Positions 12,927 to 60,430 of a stretch of 64,000 nt of DNA are shown in pieces. Location: NCBI GenBank assembly GCA_946699065.1, contig CAMPDV010000381.1:62001-126000 (forward strand), written 5' to 3'. The notes below the pieces were generated by a model that ran no database searches, was not told where the DNA came from, and saw only the letters and a program-made list of their open reading frames with translations. Both the position numbers and the translations under genes were made by a program. The stretch is from Loxodes magnus (taxonomy: Eukaryota > Ciliophora > Karyorelictea > Loxodida > Loxodidae). Position 1 is the stretch's first letter. Each line of letters opens with the position of its first letter.

Positions 12927-13859
12927 TCACCATAAAGATCCAAATCGTAAGAAAAAGCAAAGATAGTCAAAATTTTGTATGCAATATTAATAAAATGAAT
13001 ATTGTATAAAATTTTAGTTCTTAAGGAGGTAATTTCTTAAATCACTAATATAAAAAATAATTTATTTATTTGCAAAAATAAATTCTGAGACTTTCTCTGG
13101 TTACATATAAATATAAGGACTTATTTAAGATAATTAGTTTTACACGTTAGATTTGTATTTTTTTAATAATAATTTAATCTAAAAAAACTAACTTTAATAG
13201 AATAATTTAGTATAATATCATAATGTTATAATTAAATATTGCAAAAATGGGGAATGGTACAAGCAGTTAAAGTCAAATAATTATTTTGGTTAATTGTAAC
13301 CTTTAATTGGTGCATGAGGTGGTGTGCTTTCTTAACTATTTTGGGAATATGAGATTTAGATAAGGAGGATTGGAGTCTAATATTCCGCAATGTTTAAAAT
13401 GGATTGCAGATTCGATGATGACTTGGCATTATCTACAAATTAGGCGTAGAAGATCAATTCTCAAACATAGATTCTAGTGAGGTTATTATGCGTTGTATTT
13501 AATGCTTTCTTGATTCCGAAATTGGACTCTTAAGCAAAATTAAAATTTTTATATTAATTTTAATATAAAATCTATAAAAATTATATTAAATTTAAATAAA
13601 AATTTTATTAAAATTATTAATGCTTCAAGGGTAATTTCATTAATTAAATCCACTTCAAAACCGAAAACCTTTCATAAGCATTCCCTCCAAGATCTTTGAT
13701 CCTACTAACGACCTTTCTTAGATTGGAAATAAAATCAGATAATTCAAAATCTTACTCTCGCTGTTCTTTAATCGTACAAAAATATTATATTTTAGTAATT
13801 ATATAATCAACTTTAGATTTTGATTAAATTTTTTGTTTTTTCTTAACTTTAATAGACAT
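12927..13859 (-). CDS. hypothetical protein, 310 aa
   Basis: Unrecognised, but convincingly coding. ATG at 13859 gives a basic start (MSIKVKKKQKI). A hydrophilic helical block follows (DFISNLRKVVSRIKDLGG, then YERFSVLKWIQLMKLPL). Next comes a Gln/Asn/Tyr-rich low-complexity insert encoded by very AT-rich DNA. A second block follows (FGIKKALNTTHNNLTRIYV, then WELIFYAQFVDNA), then a Ser/Pro/His-rich stretch and a final block (EKVSEFIFANKQIIFYISDL) closing at LRFGSLW and TGA (12927-12929). Frame is kept throughout. Two internal TGA codons fall at positions read as Trp. The first helical block faintly recalls all-helical transcription-elongation N-terminal domains, but this is not firm. It stands alone between a small plus-strand ORF and the repeat cluster. 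Confidence 0.6.
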
Positions 13860-18611: not shown

Positions 18612-20996
18612 TCACTTTCTACTTTATAATTTCACTCATAATTGCATTGTTTAAACTACAATTCACAAACTTTATGCCATAATCGAAATATAGCAGATTC
18701 CAATCTATCTACTTTATTTTTATATAAGTTAAATTTAGCTTACCTTATGTTTTTGATTTAACTATTCACCATTTTACAATCTTTACACATTCCACCTCCT
18801 AACTTATCCTAATCCCCCTCCTGATATTATCCACCTGTTATCAGATGTTATTTTCATACTTGATACAGAAATTTTATGACCTTTTAATGTTACCATGCAT
18901 TAACCAGTCATCAAGTTCCATATCTTGATGGTGCCATCATTGCTTCCTGATACTATTAATCTATTATCACTTGATATTGTTACTGAATTTATATAATTTG
19001 TATGACCAGTTAATGTATTCATTAATTAACTTTTTTGAATATCCCATACCATTATCGATCTGTCATAACTTCCTGATACTATTCAATTAAAATCGTTTGA
19101 TACTGCTACAGATTCTACAGATTAAGTATGACCCTAAAAAGTGCTTATTAACTAGTTAGAAGTTAGATCCCAAATCTTTATCGTAGTATCATAACTTCCT
19201 GATATTATTCACTTATTGTCTCTCGATAATGCTAAACTAAGAACAGTAGAAGTATGACTCTATAAAGTACTCCTTAATAAGTTAGAAGTTAAATCCCAAA
19301 TCTTTATTGTATTATCAGCACTTCCTGATACTATTCATTTATTGTCACTTGAAATAACCACAGAATAAATGGGAAGTGTATGACCCTACAAAGTACCCTT
19401 TAAATAGTTAGAAGTTAGATCCCAAATTTTTATCGAAGAGTCATCACTTCCTGATACTATTCACTTACTATCACTTGATATTGCTACAGTTCTTACATCA
19501 CTTGTGTGTCCCTATAAGGTACTTTTTATCTCACCAGTCATAAATTCCCATATCTTTATCGTCTTATCTCTGCTTCCAGATATTATTCACTTATTATCAT
19601 TTGAAATTTCTACTGAATTTACAAAGCCAGTATGATCTTATAGAATATGGGGATGCTCAGTTAATATATTGGAAAGGTTTATTTTATCTAGGTTGCAATT
19701 TAAGAATTTGGTGTTTCTCAAATTGCAATTCGTGAAGTCAGAATTTTATAAATTGCATTAAGTGAAAAAACAGTCAGACATATCAGCGTTTTTTATCTTT
19801 ACTCCCTAAAAATTTACCTCATTGAAGTCATAACCCATGTAATTTAATATAGTCGCTGCATTGGAAGATGCTTATATAACTAAATCAGATTACTTTGATA
19901 CTTAAATTATCTCTATCAGCTTTTATTATATTTATTAATCCTATAATGACAGTAATTGAAATAGCACTTCATAATTATCGTTAATACTAGATTTGTTCAA
20001 GGGATTATTAATCATGCTCTAAACAGTTATACTCTTATTCTTGAGTTCATTTAATAGATCAAGTATATCTTAAAAACTTCCAGCATTTATACTTTATATC
20101 TATTTTATGGATTTTTATTCAATCTATTACCCTTAAATTTACTAAAGCTATTCTTACTAATTGCTTACAACAACTTTCTAGATAGGAAGATCTTGACTTA
20201 CTACTCTTTAAATTTAAGGATGATTTTACTAAAACAGATTATGGAAAGCTTATTAGATCTTTTACTATTAGACATATTATTGAATTAGCATTGCACTATT
20301 CTTAAAACTGATTTGCTTTTAATTAGCTTTATCCTTTAAGTAAGTAAATAAATCACAAACTTATTACATCATTATTTCATTTAACTCACTAGTATTAAAC
20401 TATATTTGTTTTTCCTGCTCATACTCTTAAATCTCATTTAATAGCTAAGTATATTGCTTCTTTACTTCATTTATAGTAGCTTATATTTCCTTCTTTTACT
20501 ATTTAGTCTTCTCTTATAAACTCGCTATCTAAGCTAATTGTATTTAAACATTATTTAACCTGCTGATTAAATACTCAGCTCTTTGTAATTTTTCTTTCTA
20601 AACTGAAGTTAAAAGCTTCAATTATATTTGAATCAACTAGTTTGATACTGTTTTGATAAATCGCTATATTTGGCTTATACTTTGAACTATCAGTTAATGC
20701 TATTTAGACTATTCAAAATAATGAGCCTTTAAGTTCTAAAATATCCTATTGGATGCTATTTCTTACTGAATTTACCTTATTTCTTATTGTTCATTTTCAA
20801 ATAGAGCATAATTTTTAAGATCTACAGGATTATCAAAGAAAAGCTACTAGTGTTTCCAGCATTTTACAGATTTATTACTATTGTATATAGCATTAAGACA
20901 CTCAAGGCATTAAAGACATCCACATGGTAGCTGTTTTGCTAATCTATCACTACAATTATAATAAATTTAGCACATAGGACACTAATTTAAATCCAT
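18612..20996 (-). CDS. RING-like, coiled-coil, pentapeptide and WD40 protein (paralogue 1)
   Basis: About 794 residues from ATG 20996. Residues 5-50 are a RING-like finger (CPMCQIYY, then PCGCLQCLECLNAIY, ending CWKH). Residues about 60-370 are Gln-rich coiled coil. About 375-440 are pentapeptide repeats of the A(D/N)Lxx type (IKNADMSDCFF, CNLQNSDFTNCNLRNTKF). About 450-740 hold seven WD40 repeats (SDNKWIVSGSADNTIKIWDL is typical). Five repeats use TGA for the Trp before IVSGS or IISGS. A ligase scaffold reading substrates through the propeller is a reasonable inference. The end is uncertain: 18612-18614 is the last in-frame TGA before a long TGA-free run, but it aligns with a TGG Trp in the paralogue at 25.45 kb. 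The two genes are head-to-head, 4.4 kb apart. Confidence 0.88.
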
Positions 20997-25451: not shown

Positions 25452-27950
25452 ATGGATACAAAATAGTGTCCTAATTGTTAGAATCCTTATGATGAAAAAG
25501 AAAGAGCAGCAAAAGAATTACAATGTGGCTGCTTAGCTTGCTTTTAGTGTCTTAATGCAGGATATCAATTATTTCAGTCGATAATATGTAAAAACCATAA
25601 ACAAATATTCAGTTGTAAGCCAGAAGATCTAAAGCCTTTCTAAGGAATTGCATGTATAGATGATTAGTTAATCTAACTCAAGCAAGATATTTAATAAAAC
25701 TAGCATATCAAAGGAATAGTAAATAGTTACAGCATTCAATAAAGCTAATTTTAGTAAGCAAGAAAATCAATATTAGAGATATAAAATCTATTTTAGGGAT
25801 TAACTAAGTAATTCTGGTAGTAATAGATATAAAATTTCTACATCCTTTCTTTGGATATAATATCAAGCAAATATTAAGAAAAGATTTAGTAAATATAATA
25901 AATAGTAGATAGAATAGAAAAATTATTGGAAATTAAACCATAAAACGTATAGCAAAAAGATGAAAAGTAGAATGCTATTAAAGTACTGCAATAGTAATAT
26001 GATTAGATTCAAAGAGAAATTTAGGGGTAAGATGAAAGGATTAAGATTGATATAGAAGAGTTGGAGAAGTACTTAGTAGAGAGTTATTACAATATGATAA
26101 GATTAACATAGCAAAGTGAGTAGAAGTTGAAAAAAAGTAATATCAGAAAATTAATAGAAAAGTTTTTATAGAATTAAAGTGAAGAATTAAAATAAAGCAA
26201 AGCATTTAAAAGAGATAACTTAAATTAGAAAGATTAATAGCAACTATAGAATGATTAACGTGAAGATAAAAAACTAGAATAATAAACTATGGAAGAATAT
26301 AAGGAAGTAGTATAGGATAAGGAATAAAGTTTTGAAAATATAAAGTTTGAATATTTAGAGGAGCTTTTGAATTAATTTAAGGTTCAAGAGATAGACATTA
26401 AGTAATTACAGATGAATTATTTAAATAAATCAAGCATAGTAAATTACGAAGAAGTTTTGTTAAAGTTATCTTAAAATAAAGATGAGTAACTGTAGTAGAA
26501 GTTATTACAAGTTATAGAGCTGTCTAAGAATTCTTAGGAAATAGAGTAAGTAGCATCTAATGCTATAACAATATTAAATTACATGAATTATAGCTTTAAA
26601 TAATAGAATTTATAAGGAATAAAAGTTTAAAATGCGGATTTATCAGACATGATATTTGATAACTGTGATCTGTCAAATTCTAATTTATAGTCTTGTAATC
26701 TTCGAAATACTAAATTTATTGATTGTAAATTGGATAATGCTAATTTATCCAAAGTAATGATAGGATTACCACATGTTATAGAAGGTCATACATCATATGT
26801 TACATCAGTAGCTATTTCTAGTGATAATAAATGAATAGTATCGGGAAGTAAAAGACCTGAAAACGCAATAAAGATATGAGATTTCTAAAATAATTAATTA
26901 AGAAGTACTTTAATGGGTCATAAGAGTCCTGCATCTTCTTTAGCAATATCAAGTGACAATAAGTGATTAGTATCAGGAAGCAAAGATACAACAATAAAGA
27001 TTTGGAATATTTAAAATAATGAGCTAAAGAGTACTCTAAACATTCATACAGGAAATGTATATTCAGTAGCAATATCAAGGGACAATAAATGAATAGTATC
27101 GGGTAGCTATGATAAAACAATAATGATATGGGATTTTTAAAATAATGAGTTAAAAAATATCTTGAAAATTCATACAGATCCTGTAAATTCAGTAGCAATA
27201 ACAAGTGATAATAGATGAATAGTTTCAGGAAGTGATGACAAAACGATAAAGATATGGGATTTCTAAAATAATGAATTAAAAAGTACTTTGTAGGGTCACA
27301 CACACTATGTATTATCTGTATAAATATCAAATGAAAATAAATTTATATTATCAGGAAGTATAGATAGTACAATAAAGATATGGGATATCATAGATGGCTC
27401 TTGCAAATTTACATTAGAAGGACACTAAGCTTCCGTATTTTCGGTTAAAATAAGTATGAATAACAAGTGAATAATATCAGGAAGCAAAGATAAAACAATA
27501 AAAATATGAAATTTTTAAGATGGAAAGTGTTTATGTACTCTATATGGTCACAAAGATGCTATAGGTAGCTTAGATATTTCAAAAGACAATAAGTGGTTAG
27601 TATCAGGAAATGGCCAAGGATGGTCAGAATGTAAAAGTGAGGAGTACGTGATAAGAAGATGGAACATACAAAAATTATTAATTGATTAAGACAACAAAGA
27701 ATAAGAAAAAGTAAGTATATTTAGTAAAAAATAAATTAGAGAAATTGGAATTACTTATATAAGGAATACGGGTTAAAGTTTGAGAGATGTAGCTTTAAAA
27801 ATATAGTAGTAGAGGAGATTGTCAAGTAGAAGATGGAAAGTTAGCAAGTAAGTTTAGAGTAAAAGATACAAATTTACTAAACTATTTAAAATTAACCGTT
27901 TATTAAGTTTTAAGTATATAAGAGATAATATGATTTTTTTAATTGTATGA
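25452..27950 (+). CDS. RING-like, coiled-coil, pentapeptide and WD40 protein (paralogue 2)
   Basis: ATG 25452 to TGA 27948-27950 in one frame, 832 residues. The order matches the gene at 20996. First is a RING-like finger (CPNCQNPYDEKERAAKELQC, then GCLACFQC and CKNH). Long Gln/Lys/Glu coiled coil runs to about 370. Pentapeptide repeats occupy 376-436 (VQNADLSDMIFDNCDLSNSN, LRNTKFIDCKLDNANL). WD40 blades cover 443-736 (SDNKWLVSGSKDTTIKIWNI is typical). A basic tail follows. At least seven Trp codons are TGA; others are TGG in equivalent positions of neighbouring blades, which is direct evidence that TGA means Trp here. Likely a ubiquitin-ligase-like scaffold (inference from RING plus propeller). 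The final TGA is preceded by a long stretch of about 80 codons free of in-frame TGA. Confidence 0.92.
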
Positions 27951-30506: not shown

Positions 30507-33500
30507 ATTGGACATATAAATATCAATGGGATTGGAATTAAACAAACGAATGTGGAAGAATTTATTAAGGAAAATTAAATAGACATACTCTCAATAAATG
30601 AGACTTGATAAAAACATGAATTTCTACATATATTAATTAATGGTTATAGAACGTATTTTAAGAATTCTGGCAAAGGAGGTGGAATGCGTTTAATTGTGGA
30701 AGATTAACTTAACAGTACAGAGGTATCCAGAGTAATTGATGCAGCATAGGATAGATTCATAACAATCAAATTAGATGATGTTTATATTAAATCTTGTTAC
30801 ATGCCAGATAACAGTAAAAGTGAAAAGGTTAAAGATGAAGCATATGAATATTTAAATACATTTTTAAATTAATTTCCAGACAATCCACATATATTGCTAG
30901 GAGATTTCAATGCTTTACTTGCTAATTACGGAAATAATCCAGGTAATAATTATGATAACACAACTAGATTTCAAGAATTTTTGATATAAAATGATCTAGA
31001 AATATTAAACGATAAGAGCGCTAATACATGTATACACAAAGGTACTGGATTTAATTACTGCAATGATTATATTATTATAAATAATCATTTAAACAGTAAT
31101 TAATCTGCTAACCTTCAGGTACATAATGATAGTTTATTTACTGATCATATTCCTATCACAATTGATTTCATTTCTAATATACCCATTTATATGAAAAAGT
31201 AAATATAATAAAAATGCAAAAAAGTAGATTTTAAGCTCCAATTGATAGGAAGAAATATCAAGATTCTTTCCTTTGGTCTTATATTGAATTCTTTCAATTT
31301 GATAGTAATAATTTAGAAGGATAATATTTATGCATAAAAAGCAATATAGAAGATAACGCAAACCTAATTTTAGGATCATTTATTCTGGATGCAAAATATA
31401 ATAAACTTACTAAAGATTTAGCAAACAAATATATTTAGGCAAAAAGAGCAAATCTTCAAACTTCACTTATGAAGATTTAGAAAAAGCAAGGCAAAAAAAT
31501 TTCTAATTCTTAATGAAAATGCAAAAGATATGCTTTCCTAAGCCAAGAAAATTCTTAATCCTAGAATAAAAAACTAAATGAATTTTAACTAATAAAAATA
31601 AGATTAATTCGTTAACAATGGGAGAAATTTGTATTTAATAAGCATGAAAAACTCACTTAATAGAAACTTGATATAAGTAACAAGAGAATTTATCAAATTT
31701 ACGAAAATATTGAAGAGATATAAAAGAAATAACCTTCACATTGCTAAGGATTTGATTCCTTTACTATTGAGAAAATTAAAGAAGTTATAAAAGAAATTTC
31801 AAATCGAAAAGCTGCAGGTCCAGATGAAATTAAAGGAGAATTGTTGAAATATGGAAGTGATTATTTAACTTTAATACTTCATTCCTTTTTGAATAATATG
31901 CTTAAACTTGGAAAAATTACTGATGAGCTCAACAAAACAATAATCATCCCGATTTTAAAAAATGGAAACAAAGATGATTGAAAGAATTGACGACCAATCT
32001 CTCTTAATAACACTATACTGAAATTGTATGATAGAACACTCTTAAAAAGATTATATTAGTTAATATACTAAAGGAACTTAATCCATCAGAGTTAAATGGG
32101 ATTTTTAAAATAGAAATAGACTACTCAGTAGATTTAAGTAATACAATAAATAATAGATTTATTTCGAAAGTAAGCAAGCCAAAGGAAAAATAAATCTAAT
32201 AGCAACTTTGATTGATGTGGAAAACATGTTCGACTCAATAGAAAGAAGGTTGCTTTTTCATCACCTGAAACAAGTCAAGCTACCTTTAGGATTGATATTA
32301 GCTTTTGAATCTTTCTACAAAAATCTAAGTTCTTAATTCCTTATAGATGGAAACTTTTCTAAAAATCTTAAATATAGTAATGGAGTAATGTAAGGAAGTT
32401 CGCATGAACCAGTGCTAGCGTTATTGTATTATGATATTGCTATTAGATATATAGAAAGTAAAGGAAATAGTATTGGATTCAAATGTAACAGCTTCAATAA
32501 TAGTTTTGCTTGCAGAGGATGGGCTAATGACTTAATACTCCTTTCAAAATCTAAAAAGAAAATGTAAAAATTAATAGATGAAACAAATAGAGTTTTTAAT
32601 TGAACTTAGCTAAAATAAATGCCTCTAAATGTGAATCAATCCAGTTTCTAAAAATCATAAAAGAAAAGAGAAAAATTTAAACTTGAAGGTTTGAAATCAG
32701 GTTACCGCTAAAAAATAGCAATTTTCATATTTAGGGGTAACTCACCATTAGAAAAAGGACTTAATTAATCACTGCAAATAGGTCTCAATTAAATATCTGT
32801 CTGCTATGAAGAAGGCAGTATTTACTTTATCAAGGTATAAAAATGTGACACCTTTTAAGACTTCGTGTAGAATGTTCACGCTGCCTAAAGAAGGATATGG
32901 AGGATAATTAGTACCTTGGCCTATTTAAAATGGAATTACTGCAACATTAAATAAAATTGATAAAAGCATGAGACTGATAGCAAGAAAAACCTTTTGAGCA
33001 CCCGAAAATACTTTTAATGAGTCTTGTTAAATAGATCTTAACTGAATGCCATTTAAGCATATTATGGCTCTGAGGTTTTTTAAATTTTTTTACAAAATAC
33101 GATAAGAAAATATTAATCATCCTTTATCAGCAATAGGATCTCTTTTTAAGAATAACTGATAAGAAGGTTATTAATATAGAGACTAAATAGCAAAACTATC
33201 TGAATATTATGAAATAGATATTAATAATTAGGAACACAATAGCAGCATTAATACTTTTAAGAAATATGTTAAAAGTAAGATTCAACATTAATTTATAAAG
33301 TAACCACTTAAAAACTAAAAAGGTGCCCACTGCAAAGTTATTTATAGAATAATTCTAGTAATAGTAATTCTTGGAAATTACCTATCCGAAATTAAATAAA
33401 TAATATCAAAGAGAAATTATTAGTATATACAAACTCATAACATAAAGCTACAACTTTCGAAAAAACCTTCAATATAGACATTATTCTATCGAGAATCCCC

Positions 33501-33860
33501 ACTGCATATGTGGAGAATTTGGTAAGTTTGAGTATATTCTGGATTGCAATTGTAATATAGACATGCGGGAATGGATATCAGCAATGATTGGATAATGCGA
33601 TATTAGAAGACTAATAATATATGACCAAAACTATATCAGATAATTTCAAAAAAACAAATTAGAATACATTGATCTACAAATAAAAATTTTCATAAGATGT
33701 TAATTAAAAGGAGATTAGAATTATTTTAACTGGAAAAAGAATATTGATTAGAAAATTCTGCAAATAAGGGAAATACTTTTAAATAACATTATAACATCTT
33801 GATTCGAAGGAAGCAATTCCAACAATGAAAAGATATCACAAGACTATTTTAGTTAAATTT
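30507..33860 (+). CDS. LINE ORF2: endonuclease and reverse transcriptase, inactive
   Basis: The position of the sister copy's ATG is ATT here (30507). The endonuclease domain (about 30507-31190) shows HILLGDFNALL and LFTDHIPITIDF, the Asp-Asn and Asp-His motifs of AP-type nucleases. The RT domain (about 31760-32640) shows NRKAAGPDEIKGELLKY, RPISLNNTILKLYDRTL, LIDVENMFDSIERR and RGWANDLILLS. In the last, the usual ADD is AND, so a catalytic Asp is missing. A C-terminal CxC...E...H...C motif (PHCICGEFGKFEYILDC type) lies near 33500. At least two frame changes occur. By motif set it belongs to the L1-like non-LTR group, but the clade was not tested. Confidence 0.8.
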
Positions 33861-38138: not shown

Positions 38139-40889
38139 TCACTTTTTTTAAAATTCTGATGAACTCTTCTTGATGTTATCAGCTTAGCTCATAGGTTAGT
38201 GACTTATGTCTCCATATGATTTTCACTTTTATTTTATTTGCTCTAACAAGCTTATAAAAGTATCAATATCTGGTCTTATATTCTCGTCAAAAGCTAAGCA
38301 TCTGTAGAATAAATCAACTAATAAAGGTTCTTGCTATATTTCGGCTGAAAATGTAGGTATCAATTTATCGATATATACTATTTACATTAACTGCGAATCT
38401 TGAACTTAATAAAGAATTCCTTCGTTGAATATTTCTATTCCTATACAACCTAAAGATCAGATATCACTTTTTTTATTCACTTTCTTTTCAAATTATTCAG
38501 GAGCCATTCATTGATGTGCGCCTTTTTTCTCTATTACTCTTAATCAATTATCTTAATCGAATAATCCAAGAGTTAGTATTTTAGGAGAATGCTCAGTATC
38601 CAATAGAATATTAAGAGATTTTATTTATTTATGAATGAGGTTTCTAGTGTGAATAGCCTACAAACCTTCTGCTATTTAACTAAGTAAATTAAGTTTCTTC
38701 TAATATCTAGATTGAGTGTCTTTGAATAACTACTTTGTCTAAATTATTTAGAATAAACTTCCTTTACACTAAAAATCAGTTAAAATAGCTAACTCTTAAG
38801 TATCAAGTGCAAACCCTATAAGTCTTTGAACTCTTAAGCTTTTTATTAGTATAAGTTCTTTACATTCAAATCAGAACTAATCTATTAGTTTATCACTCTC
38901 TTAGTTAAATACTTTAAGCCCATACATGCTTTCTTAGATACTAATCAGATAAGTTGTTCCGAATTAATCACAAGCTAACTTCTACAATTTCTCTAGAAAT
39001 TCCTTATCAGGAACTAAATCTCCATACTTCCATATTCTTATCTCACTATCTCTGTCGACTTGCTATAAGAATTTCCTTATCTTTTCTTCTGTTATTCCGT
39101 TCTTTAATTAACTTGCTTCACTTTTAACTGTTAGTTATGGATTTTCTAATTCTGGATTAAGTTAGCGTGCTTTACAGAAACTTTCGAACGCTTCTTCATT
39201 ATTATTTAAAGTTTCGAGATAAAGACTTTTATCGTAATAAGCTTCTGAGTAATCAAGATCAAGTTAGATAGCTGTGTTGAGGCATTAGATAGCTTCGTTG
39301 GTTCTTCCTAATTTGAAGAGAGAAAAACATTTGCTTTTGAAGTAATTTGATTAAGTAGATTTTAGTTCGATAGCTGCATTAAAACTTATAATGGCTTCAT
39401 TGTATTTTTATAAATAATTCAATACAATTCCTTTATTGTAATAAGTAGACGCATCGTTAGGATCTAAATTCAGAGCTAAATCGTAGCTCTAGATTGCTTC
39501 GATGTGCCTATTTAATTTAATCAGGGCATCTCCTTTACTACTATGAGCAGCTGCTAAGTAAGGATTTAATTTTAGAGCTATATCATAGCTCTTGATTGCT
39601 TCGATGTGATTACCTAAATTATGAAGGGCATTTCCTTTATTACAGTGAGTAGTTGTATCATTAGGATTTAATTTTAGTGCTATGTCATAGCTCTAGATTG
39701 CTTCAGTGTGTTTACCTAAACTATAAAGTGCACTTCCTTTATTTAAAAAAGTATCTGCATCATTAGGATCTATTTTTAGAGCTAAATCGTAGCTCTTGAT
39801 TGCTTCGATATGATTTCCTAAACGTTGAAGGGTATTTCCTTTACTGCAATGAACAATTACTAATTTAGGATTTAATTTTAGAGCTATATCGTAACTCTTG
39901 ATTGCTTCGATGTATTTCTCTAATTTATCATATGCATTTCCTTTATTGTAATGAGTAGTTGTATCATTAGGATTTAGTTTTAAAGCTAAATCATAGCTCT
40001 TGATTGCTTCAATGTGTTTACCTAAGCTATGAAGTGAATTTCCTTTGCTACCATGAGCAATTGCTAAGTTAGGATTTAATTTTAGAGCTATATCATAGTT
40101 TTAGATCGCTTCGATGTATTTTCCTTATTTATCCAATGAAATTCCTTTATTTTAAAATGCGTCAGCATCGTTAGGATCTAAATTCAGAGCTAAATCGTAG
40201 CTCTAGATTGCTTCGATGTGCCTATTTAATTTAGTCAGTGCATCTCCTTTACTACCATGAGCAGCTGCTAATTAAGGATCTAGTTTTAGAGCTATATCGT
40301 AGCTCTAGATTGCTTCGATGTGATTACCTAAATAGTCAAGTGCATTTCCTTTTTATAAGTGAGCTTCTGCTAAATAAGGATCTACTTTTAGAGCTAAATC
40401 GTAGCTCTTTATTGCTTCGATGTGTTTACCTAAACTTTAGAGAACATTTCCTTTATTACCGTGAGCAGTTGCTAAATAAGGATCAAGCTTTAGAGCTAAA
40501 TCGTAATTCTAGATTGCTTCAATGTGTTTACCTAAACTATGAAGGGCATTTCCTTTACTAAAAAAAACATCTGCATCATTAGGGTCTAATTTTAGAGCTA
40601 AGTCGTAGCTCTAAATTGCTTCGATATGTTTACCTAAATCATTTAAAGTAATTCCTTTATTTAAATGAGCTGCTACTAATTAAGGATCTATTTTTAGAGC
40701 TAAATCATAACTCTTGATTGCTTCGATGTGTTAGCCTAAACTTTAAAGCGCATTTCCTTTACAGCCATGAGCATTAGCGTCATTAGGATCTATTATAATA
40801 GCCATATCAAAATACTCGATAGCCTCCCTATAATTATTTTCGTTTAAAAGTTATAATGCTTATTAAATATAGTAATCAGCTTCAGACAT
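38139..40889 (-). CDS. TPR-repeat pseudokinase
   Basis: About 916 residues from ATG 40889 (MSEADYYIQQALQLLNENNY) to TGA 38139-38141. An earlier TGA at 38223 is an alternative end. Residues 1 to about 580 are some 17 consecutive TPRs of exactly 34 residues (HIEAIKSYDLALKIDPQ type). Residues about 600-890 form a protein-kinase fold: GLKVFN (beta-3 Lys), ELAILTDF (hinge), HQWMAPEQFEKK (APE region, its Trp encoded by TGA), KSDIWSLGCIGIEIF and RPDIDTFISLL. The catalytic loop reads HKQIKSLNILLD (Gln, codon TAA, in place of the HRD Asp), and the DFG position reads TLG. Both catalytic Asps are therefore lost while the scaffold is kept, which indicates a pseudokinase acting as a TPR-linked scaffold or allosteric module (inference). 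Confidence 0.85.
39165..40830 (-). repeat. 102-bp tandem repeat encoding the TPR array
   Basis: Inside the pseudokinase gene, blocks such as GCTAAATCGTAGCTCT recur every 102 bp (near 39471, 39573, 39675 and so on to 40695). The DNA identity between units is much higher than the protein fold requires. About 12-14 central units are near-uniform; outer units diverge. This is consistent with recent expansion or gene conversion within the array. Confidence 0.85.
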
Positions 40890-43555: not shown

Positions 43556-43974
43556 ATTTAACTATATTTTACTTAAATTAGAATGCTTATATTTATCTTA
43601 AAATATGATTACAAATAATACTTAATAATAGTTTTAAAAAGCAAATCTTTCTCACTAAAAATAAAATATTTTTGGTAGAATGTTGCTATAATCATTTCCT
43701 TTTTAGATGAGAATAGAAAATTAGTAAAACCCTATAGTGATCTTTATTAAATAACTTAAGTTTTGCTAAAATTATATATAAAAATATGGATACTTAAGTT
43801 CTAAACAAATATAGCAGTCCCACTTCCTACATGCTGCCACACCTGGAACGGGATTGCAGGCAAGGAACTCTAAAGGTATGTAAGAGCTTACCAAAGAGTG
43901 AAAATTTGCATAAATTTCTTAGCTAAAAACACTTTTAGAAAGATAAAGCAAGCTTCTTGGAGGAATGATGAGAG

Positions 43975-45150
43975 AAGACAAACTCCAGAACGAAAACATC
44001 TATCAGAAAAAACAAATGTTACAAGCCATTATCCCCATAAATGAATAAGAGCAAATTCTCTCAGTAGTTGGAAATCAAAACGAACAAATGGCACAAAGGT
44101 TTTTGAAAATGCGCAAACAAACATAGCGAAGTGAGTATGAGTAGCCTACTTTAATAATTACTTAGAAAAACGATATCAAGGATAAAAACTTAACCCAGCC
44201 GTAATCAAATAAGAGGAATAATTTTAGCATTTTTTAATTATCTAAAGAGGAACTTTGGAGAAAACATACCGAGAGTTTAAATCTTACCAGCAGGTATAAT
44301 ATTTATAGGTTTCAAAAATAAAGTAAGCCCACAAAAAATTTGGAATCAATTAAGTATGGAAATATAAAAATCTTATAGTACCAATTGAGAAGCGAAATAT
44401 AGAAGATTACTACAACATAAAAAACTACCCAATACAGTAAACATTAGATATAAATGCGAACTTGAACAAAGTAGAAACCTAACTACAGAAATACAGCAGA
44501 ATCACACATTCAAAAGTGGAAATAATATAGGGAGAAGCATGAGTAAATGAAAGAATGACAACTTACCTAGAGCTGAAAGACCTTAAAGAGGCTGAATAGA
44601 TCCCTGAGTACATTGACATGGGAGGAATAAAAACATGACTGAGCCACCCGGCAATATGAAAGCGTAAAGAATGTAATAAAAACGGACATAGTACATAACA
44701 GTATCTGAGAAAGAACGCCATAATGGAAACTGTCAAAAGAGCGGAAGAAGCCTAAATAAACATGATGATGCTAGAAATTAGGAGCAACATGTCTAGCTAA
44801 GAAAAAATAGAATTAGAAGAGGAAGCTAAAGAAGAAAACAGGGATATGCATAACCATTAACTTTAAACATACTCTGAATTTAAAATTAAAAAACAAAAAT
44901 AAAATAAAATTGAGATTTTTTCAAATGTAGATCGTATATATAAAAGGCCAATAGCAGAAAAACTTAACAAGAAATGAAATAAATTGACTAATACTGATTT
45001 AAAATAGGAAATATGACAAAATAGATGTGAAATAGCGAGGAAGTAATGAGAAAAGAATAGCCAGCACAATAAAACTATCCTAAAAAATAGAAATTAAAAT
45101 TGCTTCGCAGAAAAATGCAAGCATGAAAAATTAGTACATCTAGGCTTAAA
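43975..45150 (+). CDS. LINE beta ORF1, nucleic-acid-binding type, decayed
   Basis: ATG 43975 opens MMREDKLQNENIYQKKQML. A basic, Gln-rich body follows. Near 44640 a stretch reads GGIKTWLSHPAIWKRKECNK then NGHSTQQYL, resembling the Cys/Gly-His part of a zinc knuckle with some cysteines lost. An acidic helix (KIELEEEAKEENRDMHNH) follows. The frame changes at least once before the knuckle-like part, so the reading is approximate. Confidence 0.45.
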
Positions 45151-45269
45151 AATACCTGCATTCACTAGAAAAATATGGATTCTAATCAACCAAAGAAAAC
45201 AAAGAGGTAAAAAGAGAGGAAAAGAAAGAAAACTAAGATAAACCAGAATAAGAAGACAATAACATCATT

Positions 45270-48200
45270 TGAAAAGAAATAAATATAGGTACGGCAAACA
45301 TCAGGGGATAAAATCAAACAAACAAGAACTTAGTAGATATAAGCAATAAAAAAAGATAGACATAATGGCCATACAAGAAATATTTGTGGATTAAGTCAAT
45401 GAAATGCCATATATTTTTGGATATAGAGCCATCATAAAACCAGGTACAAAGCACAGCTAAGGAGTATCTTCTTATTTGAAAGAGAGGATTTTAAATAGTA
45501 CCAAGGAAATGGTTGTACCAGGCATTGATCAAAATGTACTGTTCTAGGAAGGGAGACAAATAGGACTGACAATAGATAAAATAATAGCAATAATAAATGT
45601 ATATGCGCCAACAACCTCAGATTTGAATCAATTAGATTCATTTTACGAGTGCTTAAAATAATTTATTTTGACAGTAAACAGTTAAGGAATGTAAGTTATG
45701 ATAGTAGGAGATTTTAATGCACACATTCCTCAATTTCTGCCTGGTGAACTGAATAATGCAGGTAAAAATTTGTTAAACCTAATGAGAGAGCACTAATTAG
45801 AGTGTAGAGATCCACCATGTGATCCAACTTACATCTTTGCAAAGGGATAAGCAAAATTTAAGATAGCTACTTTCTAACAGACTAATACACTACACCAAAT
45901 ATTATTAGCACAAAATTTTATTAAAAGTGATCAATAGGAGACCACTAACCAGGTAAAATTTCAATAAAGATTGGAGATTAATGTAGAGAAGACTCTCAAG
46001 CAAAAAACTATTTCTTTAAAAGCTAAAATAAGAATAAAATTAAGAAAAATTAAGGAAATTAATAGATAAAATAGATTTTTAGGAACTGAAAAAATTGAAT
46101 AATGACGCATATTATGATAAATGATAAGAGTATATCAATGAGGGAGTTCAAGAAATCTGTGGCTATATAGCCAATTAAAGAAGAGTATATTAATACACGG
46201 AGGAACAAAAATAATAAAGAAAGAATTTCAAAAACAGGCAAAAAGGTTAAAACATTAATCAGATAAGGACACTAATAGCTTAGTCACGAAATTAAACTGA
46301 GGTATGAAGATAAAAGAAATTCACAAGGTAAGTAAAAAAAGATATACGAAACTAATTTAATATATATTTAAATAAAATCAACTAAGGGAATGTAAATGAA
46401 ACATGAAAATGTATACAAAGATGATTAAAATAAAGAAACAATATACCATGAACTTTAATAGATAAATAGGATATGGAAAACTCAAAGAAGTTGATAAGAA
46501 CTTTACAATAATGGAAACAATAGATTGCCGGAAGTATTTAAAAATAAAAATAAGATATAAGTGAAGGAAGAAGATTTAGTAAGATATATAGAAAAACTAC
46601 CTTAACGAAAGACGGCAGGAGCAAATAGAATCTAAATAGGAACGATAAAAGAAGAAGGGAAGAAATTAGTAAAATAACAGCGACACTAATCTAAAGAATA
46701 ATATAGGCTGGAGTTATACCTAGAAAAATAAAAGAAAGATATATCACACTTATTCATAAAAAAGGAAAAATAGAAGAGCCTATGAATTATAGGCCTATAT
46801 CATTATTGAATCATACATTAAAAATAATAGATATATGATTATTTGAACAAATAAACCCATAACTAATAAGATGTGACGATGAATTATAATATGGGTTCAA
46901 ATAAGGCAAGTCTTGTTTGTAATAGATATTTAATCTGAGAACTGCATAAGAGTGACTTCGTTTGAATAATCAAGAAACTATAGTAATATTCGTTGACATC
47001 AAAAAAGCCTTTGATTCTGTAATTAGAACAGATATATGAAAAGTGCTAAATGATGTTGGAGTACCGGAACAGCTAATCAAACTCATGGCTGATATTTACA
47101 GAGAAGAAGACGTAAAATTAAAAATAAATGACTTACTACCATAGAGATTTACAACTGAAAAAGGAGTTAAATAAGGAAGCTCTTGCTCTCCAAGATTGCT
47201 TAACATTATAATAAACATATCTATATGTGAACTAAGACAAAAGAGAGTAAAAATATTCGTAAATATGGAAAACAATTCTTGAAATGATGAAAGATATATA
47301 GGAACGTTAGCATAAGCAGACGATATAGTAATGATAGTCAGCACAGACTAGCTATAAGAAATGAATGAAATCCTATAGTAATGATCTGAATAAAATAAAA
47401 TGTAAATCGCAGATAAAACGAAATGAATGTTATGAAATGGAAGATAAATGTAGAATCAATAAATAATAGGAATAACTGGAATGTCAATAGAGAGAGTAAA
47501 AGAATATAAATATCTAGGACATTGAATATAGGAGAATATATTACATCAAATACACCTAGAATTAAGGTTGATGGAATGCTAAAAATCTCAAGCCTGAATC
47601 CTAAATAAGCTGACGCTAAAAAGGAATCACGCCCTATAACGCATCGGTAGTACAAAAAGCATTTGTAAACTAAATATTTGGCTATGAAAGTGAATGTATT
47701 CCTTTTATAGAAGAAATAATAGGATATAAAGTACTAAATAAATTAGAAATCGTTCAGCGCATAACATTAAGAGCTTTAGTAGACGCACCGTTTTGTGTAT
47801 AGAATAAAATATTAGAGTATTAATTATAGTATACAAAGTAATAATATTACCTCTGGAAGCGTATGTTATTATTCAGGACAAAATTGCTACTAAACTAAAA
47901 CAATACTTTAGATGGATGGATGTGTCAATTAGCTAAAAAGAACAACTTCATATTTGAAATATATTCAAGAAAAGTAATGGAAATTATATAACTAAGTGAT
48001 TAAATCATCGCATAATAAAGTTGAGGAGGCAAAAAGATGGAAATTATTATTCAAGAATAAATAAGATTCCATAAATGAGTATAACCATTAGAAAGAATGA
48101 ATAATATGAGTATTTGCTTCAGCTACTGTAATAAATGAATGGAAAGCAATATCTGAGTATCACCGAATTATCTCAAATATAATAAGGATAGAAAATAAGA

Positions 48201-48800
48201 AGTTGTTACCTATTCAGAATACGTACAAAATGTGATAGGGTAGCTAAAACACTTAAGGAAAGACATTTTATTGAAAATGGCATATGCAGATACTGCTAAA
48301 CGGAGGAAGAAAACGAAATCCATATAATAGAGAAATGCGGACAAACAAGAAGCTTATTTTAGGAACAAATGAATCAGCTATATGTAGAAAACAGATAAGA
48401 TCTATAATACCTTCCATAATTCTAGTTAAGTGAAATAATCAGAGAAAATTATAAATTTGAACAATAAATACGTTCTGTAAAAGAAAGTTTTATGAAACAA
48501 ATAGACGCAAGAACAAAAGAATTTATAAAAGAAATACTGGTAAAGAGGAGAAAAGGACATTTAGAAAAAAATTCTTCCACAATAAAAAATAATAGGAAAA
48601 TATTAAAGAGCTGGCTCAAATGAGCATACATGAATATATAATGAATTAACAAGAGTGATAAAACAAAAGATAAGTCAAGAAACGCTAATATAATTCTAAA
48701 ATAACATAGAAGCAAACCTAAGATGCGCCAAGAGAAAACTTACAGATAGCATAGAACGAGAAAGATAGTAGAGAAAGACAATAAGAAAATAATCTTAGTA
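45270..48800 (+). CDS. LINE beta ORF2: endonuclease and reverse transcriptase
   Basis: The endonuclease begins INIGTANIRG and has QIMAIQEIFVDQ, INVYAPTTSDL and MIVGDFNAHIPQ (45270-45960). The RT shows ITLIHKKGKIEEPMNYRPIS, VDIKKAFDSVIR (motif A Asp), GVKQGSSCSPRLLN and LAQADDIVMIVS. In the last, the residue before ADD, normally aromatic, is Gln from a TAA codon, one base from Tyr TAT. A C-terminal motif C-x2-C...H...C lies near 48290-48340 (ICRYCQTEEENEIHIIEKC). The endonuclease SDH-type segment reads IKSDQQETTNQ, without a clear DH. Several frame changes occur. Target-primed retrotransposition is the family's known mechanism. Confidence 0.75.
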
Positions 48801-49194
48801 AAGAATAATATTGCTTTAGGAGGATTTGATAATGGAAATATCATAAAAGATTGCAGCAATATCCTATAAAACTTGTTAATTGATTTTTTGAGTTGTTTAA
48901 ATATTGTCTATATGCTTAGAAGTTAACTAATGTATAAAAGTTTATATAAAGTTTCTTCAAATTTGTTTATACAAAAACAAATCTTTAACTTTGTTGCTTA
49001 TATCTATATTAGCTTCTTCCTATTATTACTAGTATGTGATATATTAGAAATGATATCTCCATTTTGACATATCTTAAAATATATTGACGATAATCAGAAT
49101 TCATAAGTATTTATATTTTGGATCAATTTAAAATCCTCATGTTCAACTCAACTTATAATTAAGAACGTCAAGTCAATAGCAAGTGCTACGTATT

Positions 49195-55075: not shown

Positions 55076-57013
55076 ATGAAAGTGAAATCAACCTATAAAT
55101 AGATGAACAGATTAACCGCCTAAAATAATACCGCGAAAGATACGAAACGATTACCTAAGAAATCTTTCCAAAAATAAGATATTATCTTAGATAGTTAGAA
55201 TTCAAAAGATATACCTTCAAATCCTAATTAATATTCAAATAAAGATATCTTTTTATGGTAGTCAAAAATAACATAAACTTAAGATTCATTTTTGAATAAT
55301 GCTAATTAGTAATTCTATTAAATTTCAAATAACGAGACTAGTCAGAAATAAAATAATATTACTAATCCTGATAATTCAAATAATCATTATTTACCTGATC
55401 TTCAGAGCAAACAACCTTAAAATTAAACTGCTGATTTAAGAAATGTAATATAAAATCAAATAATTAATTAGTCTAATGAAAACTTATTAACTTTAGAAAT
55501 AAAAGAACTTAAACATAATATATAAAGACTAATAGATAAGAACCAATAATTAAATGAAATGCTAATTAATATAAAAGCAAAATATGAACGAGATATTGAA
55601 ACATTGATAAGTAACTAAGAAATATCCAAAATATATTATAAAACTTATATAAATAAAATTTATTAGAAATATAAACTATTTTAGAACTATTTTTAGTCAA
55701 TCAAATCTGATATATAGCAATATCACAAAAAAATGCTATCAAAATAACTAGTTCATAAAATTACTTAAACAAACTTTTCCACTTATTACAGTAACTAAAT
55801 AGTTTAAACAGATGAAATAATTATTATAGTTCAAGAAATTTAGATATAATAGAAAAACTATGAGAATTAAGTCAATTCAATAGATGAAATATAATCTAAT
55901 TAAGAGATTCAAATTGAAGCCAATGCTAATTAAAGCTTTACTTAAGATTAAATGATAGGAGCAAATAATTCACTATGTCAAAACTTTAATAAAATTAGAA
56001 ATTTTACTTAAATTGAAATAGATAACTTTATAAATAAAACTTAGCAAGGATATCAATAGACTATATTAGAATAGAACTAATACTTACTTCAACAAATTAC
56101 CTAATAAAAAATAATAACCGAAATTTAACTCCAAAAGATATATTCTTAATATTAAAAATTATAAAACTAATATAAGTAATTTATAGATTAAGAATATAAA
56201 GATTAAATGGAAATTTTAACTTTTAAAATCGAATTAGATAAATAAAGATAATAAAACTATGAAATAAATATAGCTTTTCAGATGTATAAAGAACTATTTT
56301 AGAATTAAATCTAACATACAAAAGAATTTAGTAATTAATAGTAATTTTAGAAGAAGTAATTTGTAGATGCATAAACTTAAAAACTTAATTAAAATTTGAA
56401 AACAGATATATTTAATTATTCTACTAAAAGATTAAAAAAATATTAATAAAACTAAACAGATTCGATCGATGCTATTTATCAGAATTAAACCTTATCTTCC
56501 AATATTAATCTTAATATTCTTAAAAGGAAACATGAAGAAGAAGATAAAATAATTCCACCAGCAAAGCGTATGAGTAAACATAATAATAAAAAAGAGTGCG
56601 ATTAAATAATATGTTATTTCAATCTGACTAGTCTATAACTTTAAAAGTTTATTAAATCAGAAACTTGAAGACATCCATAGTACGAAATGTAAAACATATA
56701 GGGTAGATATGTCACAGTTACTTAAGATCTAGAATAAGGTACATGTGATAGTGTGAAAAGTAAAATTGATATAGATTAAAAAATATACGACGTAAGTAAT
56801 ATATATTTGAATACAATATTTTCATTAACATCCTGAGTATGGAAAAAGATTAGTACATATTTAGATTAACCAATAAGGATAGAAAAGCATTTGGATTTAC
56901 GAAAGTTGTCTACCTGCAGGATCGGAAAAAATTAGAAAGGACTAATAAATTTAAAAAATAAAGATGGGACATATAAATATTAATGGAATAGCGAGCAAGT
57001 GCTTGAATATTGA
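55076..57013 (+). CDS. LINE alpha ORF1, intact length
   Basis: One frame from ATG 55076 to TGA 57011-57013, 645 residues. The N-terminal third is Ser/Asn/Gln-rich. A long coiled coil occupies the middle (LTLEIKELKHNIQRLIDKNQ, LNEMLINIKAKYERDIETL). A putative nuclear localisation cluster (LKRKHEEEDKIIPPAKRMSK) precedes a globular C-terminal domain (FIKSETWRHPQYEMQN, GRYVTVTQDLEQGTCDSV) that is conserved in the copy at 30.2 kb. Two internal TGA codons occur in this domain; one aligns with TGG in the other copy. The end overlaps ORF2 in a different frame, so ORF2 translation probably depends on reinitiation or frameshifting (inference). Confidence 0.75.
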
Positions 57014-60000
57014 AGAATTTATCAGAGATAATAGTATAGATATCTTATCAATAAACAAAACCTGATAAAAAGATGACTTTCCTCCAATATTGATAAATGG
57101 ATTTAAAACATATTTTAAGAACTCAGGAAAAGGAGGAGGCGTATGCTTAATTGTAGAAGAAGAATTTAATAGTACAGAAATACATATATAAGTTGAAAAA
57201 GAAATAATCGATTCATAACAATTAAACTGGATAATATTTTAATCACGTCTTGTTACATGCCTGATAGTGGAAAAAGTTAAGATGTTAAAGATTTAGCTTA
57301 TGAACAACTAAATACATTGCTGAATTTATATAATGATAATCCACATATACTAATGGGAGATTTCAATGCTCTTTTATAAGGTTTCGATGATAATCCTGAA
57401 AATGCTTATGATAATACTATTAGGCTATAAGAATTTTTACTATAAAACGATCTTGAGATAGTGAATGATAGCAACATTAATACATGTATTCACAAAGGAA
57501 CAGGAAAAACCTATTGTAATGATTATATCATTATAAGCAACCATTTGAACGTTAATTAGTTTGCAAATTTCACTGCTCATAATAATAGTTTATTTTCTGA
57601 TCATATTCCAATCACTGTCGACTTTATCAATAATTCTATAGTCTATTGGGAGAAGATAACTCAGAGAAAATATAAAATAAATAGGTTATAAGATGCAATA
57701 GATAGGCAAATATATTTAGGATCTTTCCTGCAACTTATCTAGAATTCTTTTAAATAGATTAAGATAATCTTGAAGATTAATATGAATGCATCAAAAGTAG
57801 TATTTAAGACAATGCTGATTAAACATTAGGTTCGTTTATTCCAGACTCAAATTATAACAAACTTCCTTGAGCTCTCACAAAGAAATATATAGAGATAAAA
57901 AGAGCTAACTCAGAATATAAGGACACTCACATAAAATTTGGAAGAATAAACTAACAAGTAACTAATCTTCATGAGACAGCAAAACGACTTTGGAAAGACT
58001 TCAAGTATAATCTATGAAAATTAAAAAAAAACAAAGCAAAAAAGAAATTTCTACTTCTTAAGGGAGATTCTAAGGAAATGTTTTCACAAGCTAAGAAAAT
58101 TCTAAATCCTATGAAGAGAAATACTATGAACTTTAATTAAGAAATCAAAAATAAATCCATTGAATCATGGGAAAATTGTGTTTTAACAAACATTCTAATC
58201 TAACTCAATAATAGATAAATCTTAGTAATTAAAAAATAGATAAAATATAAGATAGTATCTAAGAAATTAAAGATTATCCACTCTCATATTTATAAGGATT
58301 TTATCTTTTTACCATACAAGAAATATAAGAAATTATAAAAGAAATTCCGAATGAAAAAGCATCTGGTCCAGAAGGAATAAAAGGTGAACTTCTGAAATAT
58401 GGTGGATAATATTTGTTAATAATTCTTCACTCTTTTCTGAATAATATGTTAAGATTTGGAAGAATCCCTTTGGAATTAAATACATTGGCGATAATTCCAA
58501 TATTTAAAAAGGAAATAAAGATGATTGGAAAAACTGACTACCTATTTCTCTTATTAATACTATTCTAAAACTATATGATAAAGCTTTAGCAAAAAGACTA
58601 TACAATCTGCATTAGAGAAATTTGAATCATCCTTCATAAATGGGATTTATGAAAATTAGATAAAAAACTTAATAAATTTGAATAATATAGCAAATAATCG
58701 ATAACTATCGGAAATGTGCTAAAGGTAAGACTAAATTGATAGTAACACTGATAAATGTTGAAAAAATGTTTGACTCAATAGAAAGAAGACTTTCATTTGA
58801 TTAATTTAAGAGAGTTAAACTACCACTTGGAATAATAATAGACTTAGAATCGTTTTACAAAAGCCTAAATTCTTCATTTATCATAGATGGAAAGAATACC
58901 AGAACATTAAAATACAACAATGGAGTTATGTAAGGAAAGTAGCATGGACCAGTTTTAGCATTGTTGTATTATGACATAGTAATTAGGTATTTGGAAAGTA
59001 AAAGTACCTAATTGGGATTCAAATACCAGGGTTATAGTATTAGCTTCGCTTGTAGAGGATGAGCAGATGATCTTATGCTTCTTTCTAAAACTGCAAAGTA
59101 GATGCAGAAGTTAATAAATGAAACAAATCAAGTTTTTGCATGAACACGTTTAAAGATCAATGCTACCAAATCTGAATGCATCTAATTTCTAAAGAAGAAT
59201 CAGAAATAATAAATTTTAAATTTATGGTTAGGAAATTAACCAATTACTTAAAAAGAACAAGTAACATATTTAGGAGTTATTCTACATCAGAAGAATAATT
59301 TGAATCCTCATTGCAAAGAAGTTGTATTCAAATATATAGCTGCAATGAAGAAAGCTGTTTTTTAACTGATGAGATATAAGAACGTAACTCCTTGACATTT
59401 TAAAACTTTATGTAGACTTTTTACTCTACCTAAAGCAGAATATGGAGGAGACTTAGTACCATGAAGTATTCAAAAAGGAGTAACTGGAGTTCTGAACAGA
59501 ATAGAATCAAGCATGAGATTAATTTCAAGAATAGCTTTTTAAGTAGCAACTTCAACATTTAATGAATCATGTTATATAGACCTGAATTGATTACCCTTTA
59601 AGCACATTATGGCTATAAAATTCTTCAGATTCTACCATAAAATTAAATAAGAAAGTATTGATTTTCCAAGATCAACAATAGGCTCTCTTTTCATTAATAT
59701 ATGGAAAAAAATATTTCAATAATAAGATTAAGTGTAGCAATTATCAGACCTTTATAATATCGATCTGCAGAATTAATAGAATAATACCAATCTTAAAACT
59801 TTTACTAACCATATAAGAGAAAAAATACAGCAATATTTCTACAAAGTAGCTACTAAAAAATTTATGAGAATGAAAACAGCTAAAGTATATACTGAATAAT
59901 TTGGTAATCTTTAACAATTTCCACAAATTAATTATACTAAATTAAACAAATAGTATAGACGAGAAAAGTAAATATAGACTTAGAACCTAAACTTATAATT

Positions 60001-60430
60001 TTCGTAAGGATCTTTAAGATCGTCATTACCCCATTGATAATTCCTATTGTATGTGTGGAGAGTATGAAACTTTCGAGCATATCTTTAAATGTGTGTACTA
60101 TTCTAATATAATGAATTGATTATCGGAAATTATGACTTAAGGCGCCTTATACTATATGATCAAGAATATCTAAACTCATTTTCAAGGTCTAAATTGGAGT
60201 ATTTAGACTTATAGATCAAAATATTTCACAAGAAGCTAATGATAAGGAGACTTGAGATTCTAGAAACGGAGAAAGCAAAAAAGGAAGAAGCTAAAGATGA
60301 ATAGAAAGAAGAACTAATTAAAGAAAAATGATGAGATGTAAACAAGATTAAAAAACAATTTAAAAACATTTACTAATGTCAATAATTGAAAGAAGCAATT
60401 CTTGCAATTAAAGACGTCAAAAAACTCTTT
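56964..60430 (+). CDS. LINE alpha ORF2: endonuclease and reverse transcriptase
   Basis: ATG 56964 (MGHINING). The endonuclease has FKTYFKNSGKGGGVCLIVEE, NPHILMGDFNALL and LFSDHIPITVDF. The RT has NEKASGPEGIKGELLKYGG, LPISLINTILKLYDKALAKR, LINVEKMFDSIERR, GVMQGKQHGPVLALLYYD and RGWADDLMLLS, with ADD intact and the Trp encoded by TGA at 59060-59062. Motif A has Asn where copy 1 has Asp (LINVEKMFDS against LIDVENMFDS), so activity is doubtful despite the intact ADD. A CMCGEYETFEHIFKC motif lies near 60050. Two or three frame changes interrupt it. About 1,150 codons in total. Confidence 0.82.

Follow-up and report, generated by a model that had tools for sequence, protein, structure and literature searches.

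The DNA analysed here is very probably part of a Loxodes magnus macronuclear contig translated with NCBI table 27, in which UGA would be read as Trp, as stop and, in a few mRNAs, as Sec, according to competition between tRNAs and eRF1. Table 27 is already known and catalogued as the code of L. magnus, where UGA is described as the sole stop codon and as Trp at a long distance 5' of the poly(A) tail (PMC11441545). The same arrangement, UAA and UAG as Gln with UGA as Trp within genes and as stop at their ends, is reported for the karyorelict Parduczia (PMC4967479). An earlier note on this DNA had named the ambiguous karyorelict code from the letters alone, and the published code bears it out. 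Since that code is published for L. magnus, the observation made in a WD40 gene is a correct rediscovery and not a new code. What our analysis adds is that UGA also looks to be a selenocysteine codon in L. magnus, judging from gene anatomy. This reading may have been published before; a text search of the main text of the L. magnus paper (PMC11441545) did not find the string "seleno".

The assembly (GCA_946699065.1) totals 705,730,643 bp, and the published macronuclear assembly of L. magnus is given as 706 Mbp (PMC11441545). A CCA-repeat pattern had no match in the whole assembly. We infer the readings of UGA, termination included, from codon placement, tRNA genes, eRF1 residues and the anatomy of selenoprotein genes.

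In-frame TGA codons of the WD40 gene

The window (the whole stretch of 64,000 nt) contains a gene whose frame of 833 codons holds 46 TAA, 32 TAG, 14 CAA, 2 CAG, 9 TGG and 8 TGA (Table 1). If TAA and TAG are read as Gln they account for 78 of its 94 Gln codons, in line with the earlier proposal that they fill Gln positions. Under table 27 the frame reads through as a WD40 propeller; with TGA written as W in the query, the product matches Pfam WD40 (PF00400, E 1.1e-72) and WD40 chains in the PDB. Ahead of the propeller, a Cys-rich start and coiled-coil-like and pentapeptide-like stretches can be recognised by eye.

One of the eight TGA codons is terminal. The seven internal ones all fall on conserved Trp columns, five at the Trp of NK/NR-W and two at that of KI-W, as had been claimed for at least seven places. 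The further claim that neighbouring blades use TGG also holds, as codons 518, 560, 602, 644, 715 and 737 are TGG at the same two Trp positions. Were the seven TGA placed at random, the chance that all fall within the 14 Trp columns would be 6e-14, a figure that ignores the blades being tandem copies. Because the blades are such copies, the TGA sites are not independent events and represent fewer than seven.

Table 1. Window features discussed in the text, with positions counted from the first letter of the window.
Feature	Positions	Strand	Basis or remark
WD40 protein gene, 832 aa under table 27	25452..27950	+	translation, codon counts, Pfam, PDB, gene model
TGA codon 461, NKWIVSGS Trp	26832..26834	+	
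TGA codon 476, KIWDF Trp	26877..26879	+	
TGA codon 505, NKWLVSGS Trp	26964..26966	+	
TGA codon 547, NKWIVSGS Trp	27090..27092	+	
TGA codon 589, NRWIVSGS Trp	27216..27218	+	
TGA codon 673, NKWIISGS Trp	27468..27470	+	
TGA codon 686, KIWNF Trp	27507..27509	+	
Paralogue of the WD40 gene, 777 aa with table 27	18663..20996	-	modelled stop TGA 18663-18665 uncertain
TPR + protein kinase gene	38139..40889	-	gene model, domain and structure matches
LINE-like reverse transcriptase frame	58640..60331	+	RVT_1 match

Introns of L. magnus are tiny, with a mode of 17 bp (PMC11441545), and the TGA sites might in principle lie within very short introns and be spliced out. We regard this as scarcely conceivable for the WD40 gene, because the blade spacing of 42 codons is kept across the TGA sites and removal of about 17 bp would both delete some six residues from a blade and shift the frame. 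The splicing that the earlier note had weighed against its own reading is thus contradicted by the spacing of the blades.

UGA, UAA and UAG in conserved genes of the genome

The placement of TGA in conserved genes outside the window likewise indicates that UGA encodes Trp inside coding regions. When TGA was masked as X and the products aligned to solved chains, the seven TGA (five in TrxR, two in SepSecS, counted over its first three alignment blocks; eRF1 has none) lay opposite W five times, F once and C once. The single F belongs to mitochondrial TrxR2, at a place where TrxR1 has W, and the single C marks the Sec site. Both TGA of SepSecS are on Trp. A GPx paralogue (L106) has TGA at NFW, FKW and WNFGK, where two other copies (L104, L107) have TGG.

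In the TrxR gene on contig C332, TGA fills four Trp positions and one Sec position and also stands as the stop, and no TGG precedes the Sec codon. The four upstream TGA all face Trp in TrxR1; in TrxR2 three face Trp and the fourth Phe. Its stop is placed by homology, as the gene ends where chain 1zdl ends. The TrxR gene on C202 uses two TGA and four TGG, with a further TGA upstream of the start Met left uncounted.

UAA and UAG appear to encode Gln. Across the eRF1, TrxR and SepSecS alignments, 60 TAA/TAG codons lie opposite Q 18 times, E 8 times and K 7 times, a count that is not blind since the queries already read these codons as Q.

Under the standard ciliate code, in which UAA and UAG are Gln and UGA is only a stop, the WD40 frame would break at 26834 and at each later TGA, and the gene would be a pseudogene or a series of short genes in a genome that has many repeats (PMC11441545). 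This account is highly improbable. Both of its parts, the standard code and the pseudogene, are contradicted by TGA at the conserved Trp columns of the WD40 gene (seven of seven), at Trp in SepSecS (two of two) and in the C332 TrxR, where TrxR1 has Trp opposite every TGA before the Sec codon, TrxR2 has it opposite three of these four, and TGG is missing.

Candidate decoding tRNAs and eRF1

UAA and UAG would be read as Gln by dedicated tRNAs with UUA and CUA anticodons. A pattern for these anticodons matched 333 places in the genome (117 in the control), and all four copies fetched, two of each kind, fold as a complete cloverleaf. These are presumably the suppressor Gln tRNAs that the earlier note had suggested looking for, with a body that we take to be Gln-like; ARAGORN labels them stop and Pyl. 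A first, stricter pattern for Gln tRNA had no match (reverse control, 1).

A tRNA-Trp(CCA) pattern matched 128 places (control, 0), and 33 copies were read. Positions 27-43 carry A/C in 28 of 28 copies on C67 and T/C in 3 of 3 on C148, leaving an anticodon stem of 4 bp; the pair is therefore broken in 31 of the 33 copies read among the 128 places. This 4-bp-stem tRNA-Trp(CCA) is a known UGA reader that has already been reported for Loxodes (PMC13092985). The two copies on C110 (L111, L112) keep a T-A pair and a 5-bp stem, which means that some tRNA-Trp genes lack the UGA-reading form; these two are perhaps readers of UGG only.

A candidate for the UGA-decoding Trp tRNA anticipated in the earlier note is thus present in the CCA form. 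A tRNA-Trp(UCA) was not found: the UCA anticodon pattern matched 72 places (control, 66), of which approximately 33 were typed by running ARAGORN on 23 of 30 excised loci and on 15 short stretches with pattern matches, and tRNA-Sec was the sole intact tRNA with a UCA anticodon among them. The CCA form with the shortened stem, by comparison, is plentiful among the copies read, and UGA inside coding regions would be read as Trp by this tRNA-Trp(CCA), which lacks the top pair of its anticodon stem.

It is improbable that the main reader of UGA is instead a tRNA-Trp(UCA) that was missed. The survey did proceed by pattern, covered less than half of the UCA places and scored the 63 best of 42,786 candidates from a tRNA-family search. 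Moreover, a tandem repeat of about 850 bp (L070-L072, on C454 and C140) contains what looks like a degenerate tRNA-Trp whose anticodon would be TCA. Yet the anticodon stem of that repeat is unpaired by eye and ARAGORN finds no tRNA in it, the CCA form of a similar pattern does recover tRNA-Trp, the typed UCA places yield tRNA-Sec alone as an intact gene, and the 4-bp-stem form is the one reported for Loxodes.

Among the 63 best matches of the tRNA-family search (L001-L030 and further places), dozens have equal scores; they are spread over many contigs, and some form arrays of constant spacing. The 14 of these matches that were typed were all tRNA-Lys(TTT).

Two close copies of eRF1 lie about 35 kb apart on C196 (L062, L063). 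Aligned with the human-type protein, L062 shows Ser70Ala, Glu55Ala, TAS replaced by RAQ, and Tyr125Phe, and it keeps GTS, NIKS, Cys127 and Phe131; by reading, L063 has the same altered stop-recognition residues. The residue numbers are in part those that we take to apply to these positions. The list of eRF1 motifs is that of PMC12153298. With its stop-recognition motifs altered, at Ser70 and elsewhere, eRF1 would be a poor competitor at internal UGA, so that sense would be the default, and it would win near the 3' end of the mRNA, where UGA would terminate translation. This model of default sense reading and termination at the mRNA end, with its dependence on the 3' end, is that published for the group (PMC4967479, PMC11441545).

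Selenocysteine machinery and candidate selenoprotein genes

L. magnus has three intact tRNA-Sec(UCA) loci, two on C6 and one on C30, which score 63.5-73.9 bits against RF01852 (gathering score 47). A genome profile search recovered SepSecS (E 1.9e-104) and two SelD/SPS2 loci (E 1.2e-54 and 6.8e-53). Each SPS2 gene has one internal TGA, in both cases at GMKG-TGA-GCKVP; the residue opposite is Thr in solved SPS1 and Cys in another selenophosphate synthetase. All Trp codons of these genes are TGG (six of six, three per gene).

A TGR-family profile matched 10 places, five of which extend to the end of the profile and were read. These five TrxR genes (L121, L122, L123, L126, L127) all end in TGC-TGA-GGT-TGA, that is Cys-UGA-Gly-UGA; those on C202 and C1558 are near-identical at the 3' end, so the five contain four distinct genes. 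In all five, the near-identical two included, the frame meets another TGA three codons past the stop TGA, and this one looks like a kept backup stop. A sixth TGR-family place (G000:C46:859337-860707; 459 bits), with five TGA inside, stops short of the profile end and may matter.

The 3' flanks of the five TrxR and two SPS2 genes all fold as long hairpins, with z values between -2.2 and -6.0. By eye, each of the seven has a UGA...GA core, its UGA in the 5' arm and its GA in the 3' arm. A MAFFT alignment of six hairpins has a mean column identity of 55%, which we report as similarity and not as covariation. In the five 3' flanks searched, no Rfam SECIS model gave a match at E 10 or better. Two home-made SECIS scanners proved unreliable: the first matched four of seven targets against 2 matches in 271 kb of other loci and 9 in the window, and the second one of seven against 7 and 10, respectively.

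GPx was considered as a further selenoprotein and rejected, as the residue at the site is Cys in all four copies; the TGA counted in L106 lies elsewhere. Two partial Rdx (SelT/W/H) matches without TGA were uninformative.

The alternative that UGA in TrxR and SPS2 means Trp or stop and never Sec, the genes being relics, draws on the failure of the Rfam models in the flanks, the poor return of our scanners, the Cys-type GPx and the TGA-free Rdx matches. We nonetheless consider it unlikely. All five TrxR genes and both SPS2 genes have UGA precisely at the Sec position, tRNA-Sec is intact and scores above its gathering score, SepSecS is conserved, and every one of the seven flanks folds as a hairpin with a core that can be recognised by eye.

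A model for three readings of one codon

On the anatomy of these genes, UGA probably has three meanings in L. magnus, sometimes within one mRNA. In the C332 TrxR the presumed Sec codon and the stop are one codon apart. In all five TrxR genes the further TGA, three codons past the stop, would serve as a backup. We propose that a small number of mRNAs carry, 3' of the stop, a SECIS-like hairpin that directs tRNA-Sec(UCA) to insert Sec at one UGA, where the SECIS-bound tRNA-Sec would have to beat both tRNA-Trp and eRF1. As Sec is penultimate in TrxR, any UGA read as Trp necessarily lies upstream of the Sec codon.

If this is correct, the hairpins would extend the 3' UTR past its usual length in L. 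magnus (mean 53 bp, median 41 bp; PMC11441545), and an uncommonly long stretch would separate the true stop from the poly(A) tail. Were UGA to serve as Trp, Sec and stop in the same mRNA, the last two one codon apart and ahead of a structured 3' flank, this would strain the published model of a stop near the poly(A) tail. The selenoprotein genes would offer a test case for SECIS-directed tRNA-Sec set against an abundant UGA-reading tRNA-Trp.

Relation to other reassigned codes

Precedents in Condylostoma, Parduczia, Amoebophrya and Blastocrithidia, where UGA is known or indicated to be both Trp and Sec, would make Loxodes a further case of a known kind. Condylostoma magnum, as described in PMC4967479, shares codons that are read both as sense and as stop, the presence of tRNA-Sec and a tRNA set in which tRNA-Trp(UCA) was not found. 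It differs in using all three codons as stops, whereas the published stop of Loxodes is UGA only (and our gene model permitted only TGA). In Condylostoma and Parduczia, too, TrxR is reported with its Sec codon just upstream of the SECIS (PMC4967479).

Blastocrithidia resembles Loxodes in its 4-bp-stem tRNA-Trp(CCA), in having kept tRNA-Sec and in a substituted Ser70 of eRF1, which is Gly there and Ala in Loxodes (PMC12153298). Its one reported selenoprotein, SelTryp, uses UGA as both Trp and Sec (PMC12153298). As UAA and UAG are Glu and UAA is the stop in Blastocrithidia, UGA has two readings there and not three.

In Amoebophrya sp. ex Karlodinium veneficum, as among the UCA places typed in Loxodes, tRNA-Sec is the sole UGA-reading tRNA reported as found, and UGA is Trp as well as Sec in a few genes (PMC6394959). 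This organism differs in being a syndinean dinoflagellate, and its reported genes are selT, selM and selO and not TrxR or SPS2 (PMC6394959).

TrxR of Euplotes crassus offers another parallel, as several UGA in one mRNA encode one amino acid and the last encodes Sec; the choice between Cys and Sec depends on the SECIS element together with where the UGA lies (PMC3737529). In Euplotes, however, UGA is Cys and not a stop, whereas in Loxodes it would also be the stop, one codon past the Sec codon.

Gene ends in the window

The reading of UGA as stop is indicated by the homology-placed end of TrxR; the ends in the window are not placed by homology. TGA does stand at each of the five natural ends that the earlier note had listed, 27948 (+), 62068 (-), 4704 (-), 12927 (-) and 37979 (+). 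An ab initio gene model, which yielded 30 gene models in the window, ends genes at the first three and not at 12927 or 37979. Because it worked from the DNA alone, permitted only TGA as an end and had the WD40 gene among the 12 gene stretches of its training set, it supports the modelled ends weakly.

With ends that are unproven, sense TGA occurs in the last 20 codons of two of the 30 models and sense UGA in none of six chosen window models, four of which have TAA two to three codons upstream of the modelled stop. Sense UGA and UAA are published as depleted over about 20 codons upstream of the stop in the table 27 group, and these TAA run contrary to the UAA part of that depletion. The 60 bases 3' of the six modelled stops have a GC content of 0.12-0.22.

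The terminal TGA of the WD40 gene (27948-27950) is likely its stop but unproven, and the comparison with its paralogue in the window gave no homologue that fixes this end. The modelled stop of the paralogue aligns with an AGA (~27785) of the first gene, which continues for some 55 codons past it. When the tails of the two genes were compared, 321 of 1000 protein shuffles and 85 of 500 DNA shuffles were as good, which is not significant, and we make no claim as to which TGA ends either gene.

Other window genes with in-frame TGA

In five blades of the paralogue, TGA occupies the NKW-type Trp (codons 470, 512, 554, 596 and 638). With TGA read as W, the two WD40 genes are identical at 326 of 752 aligned positions. 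Twelve alignment cells contain TGA: eight pair TGA with TGA and are uninformative, two face TGG, one F and one L.

In the kinase gene, two TGA stand at W/Y positions, one ahead of a motif that we take to be MAPE and one within a motif that we take to be SDxWSxG, and Trp is opposite them in only part of the homologues. Just before MAPE (38508-38510), the five printed chains have W three times and Y twice; at the second site (38457-38459), they have W once and Y four times. Two further TGA within the printed alignments have residues other than Trp opposite.

The reverse transcriptase frame of Table 1 has TGA at the site CRG-W-A[ND]DL, where a related frame (32028-33624) has TGG by eye. LINE-like retroelement frames in the window (30684-33624, 43786-48891 and 56570-60331) are rich in TGA, and one LINE-like gene model (46473-48891) holds 16 TGA against 5 TGG.
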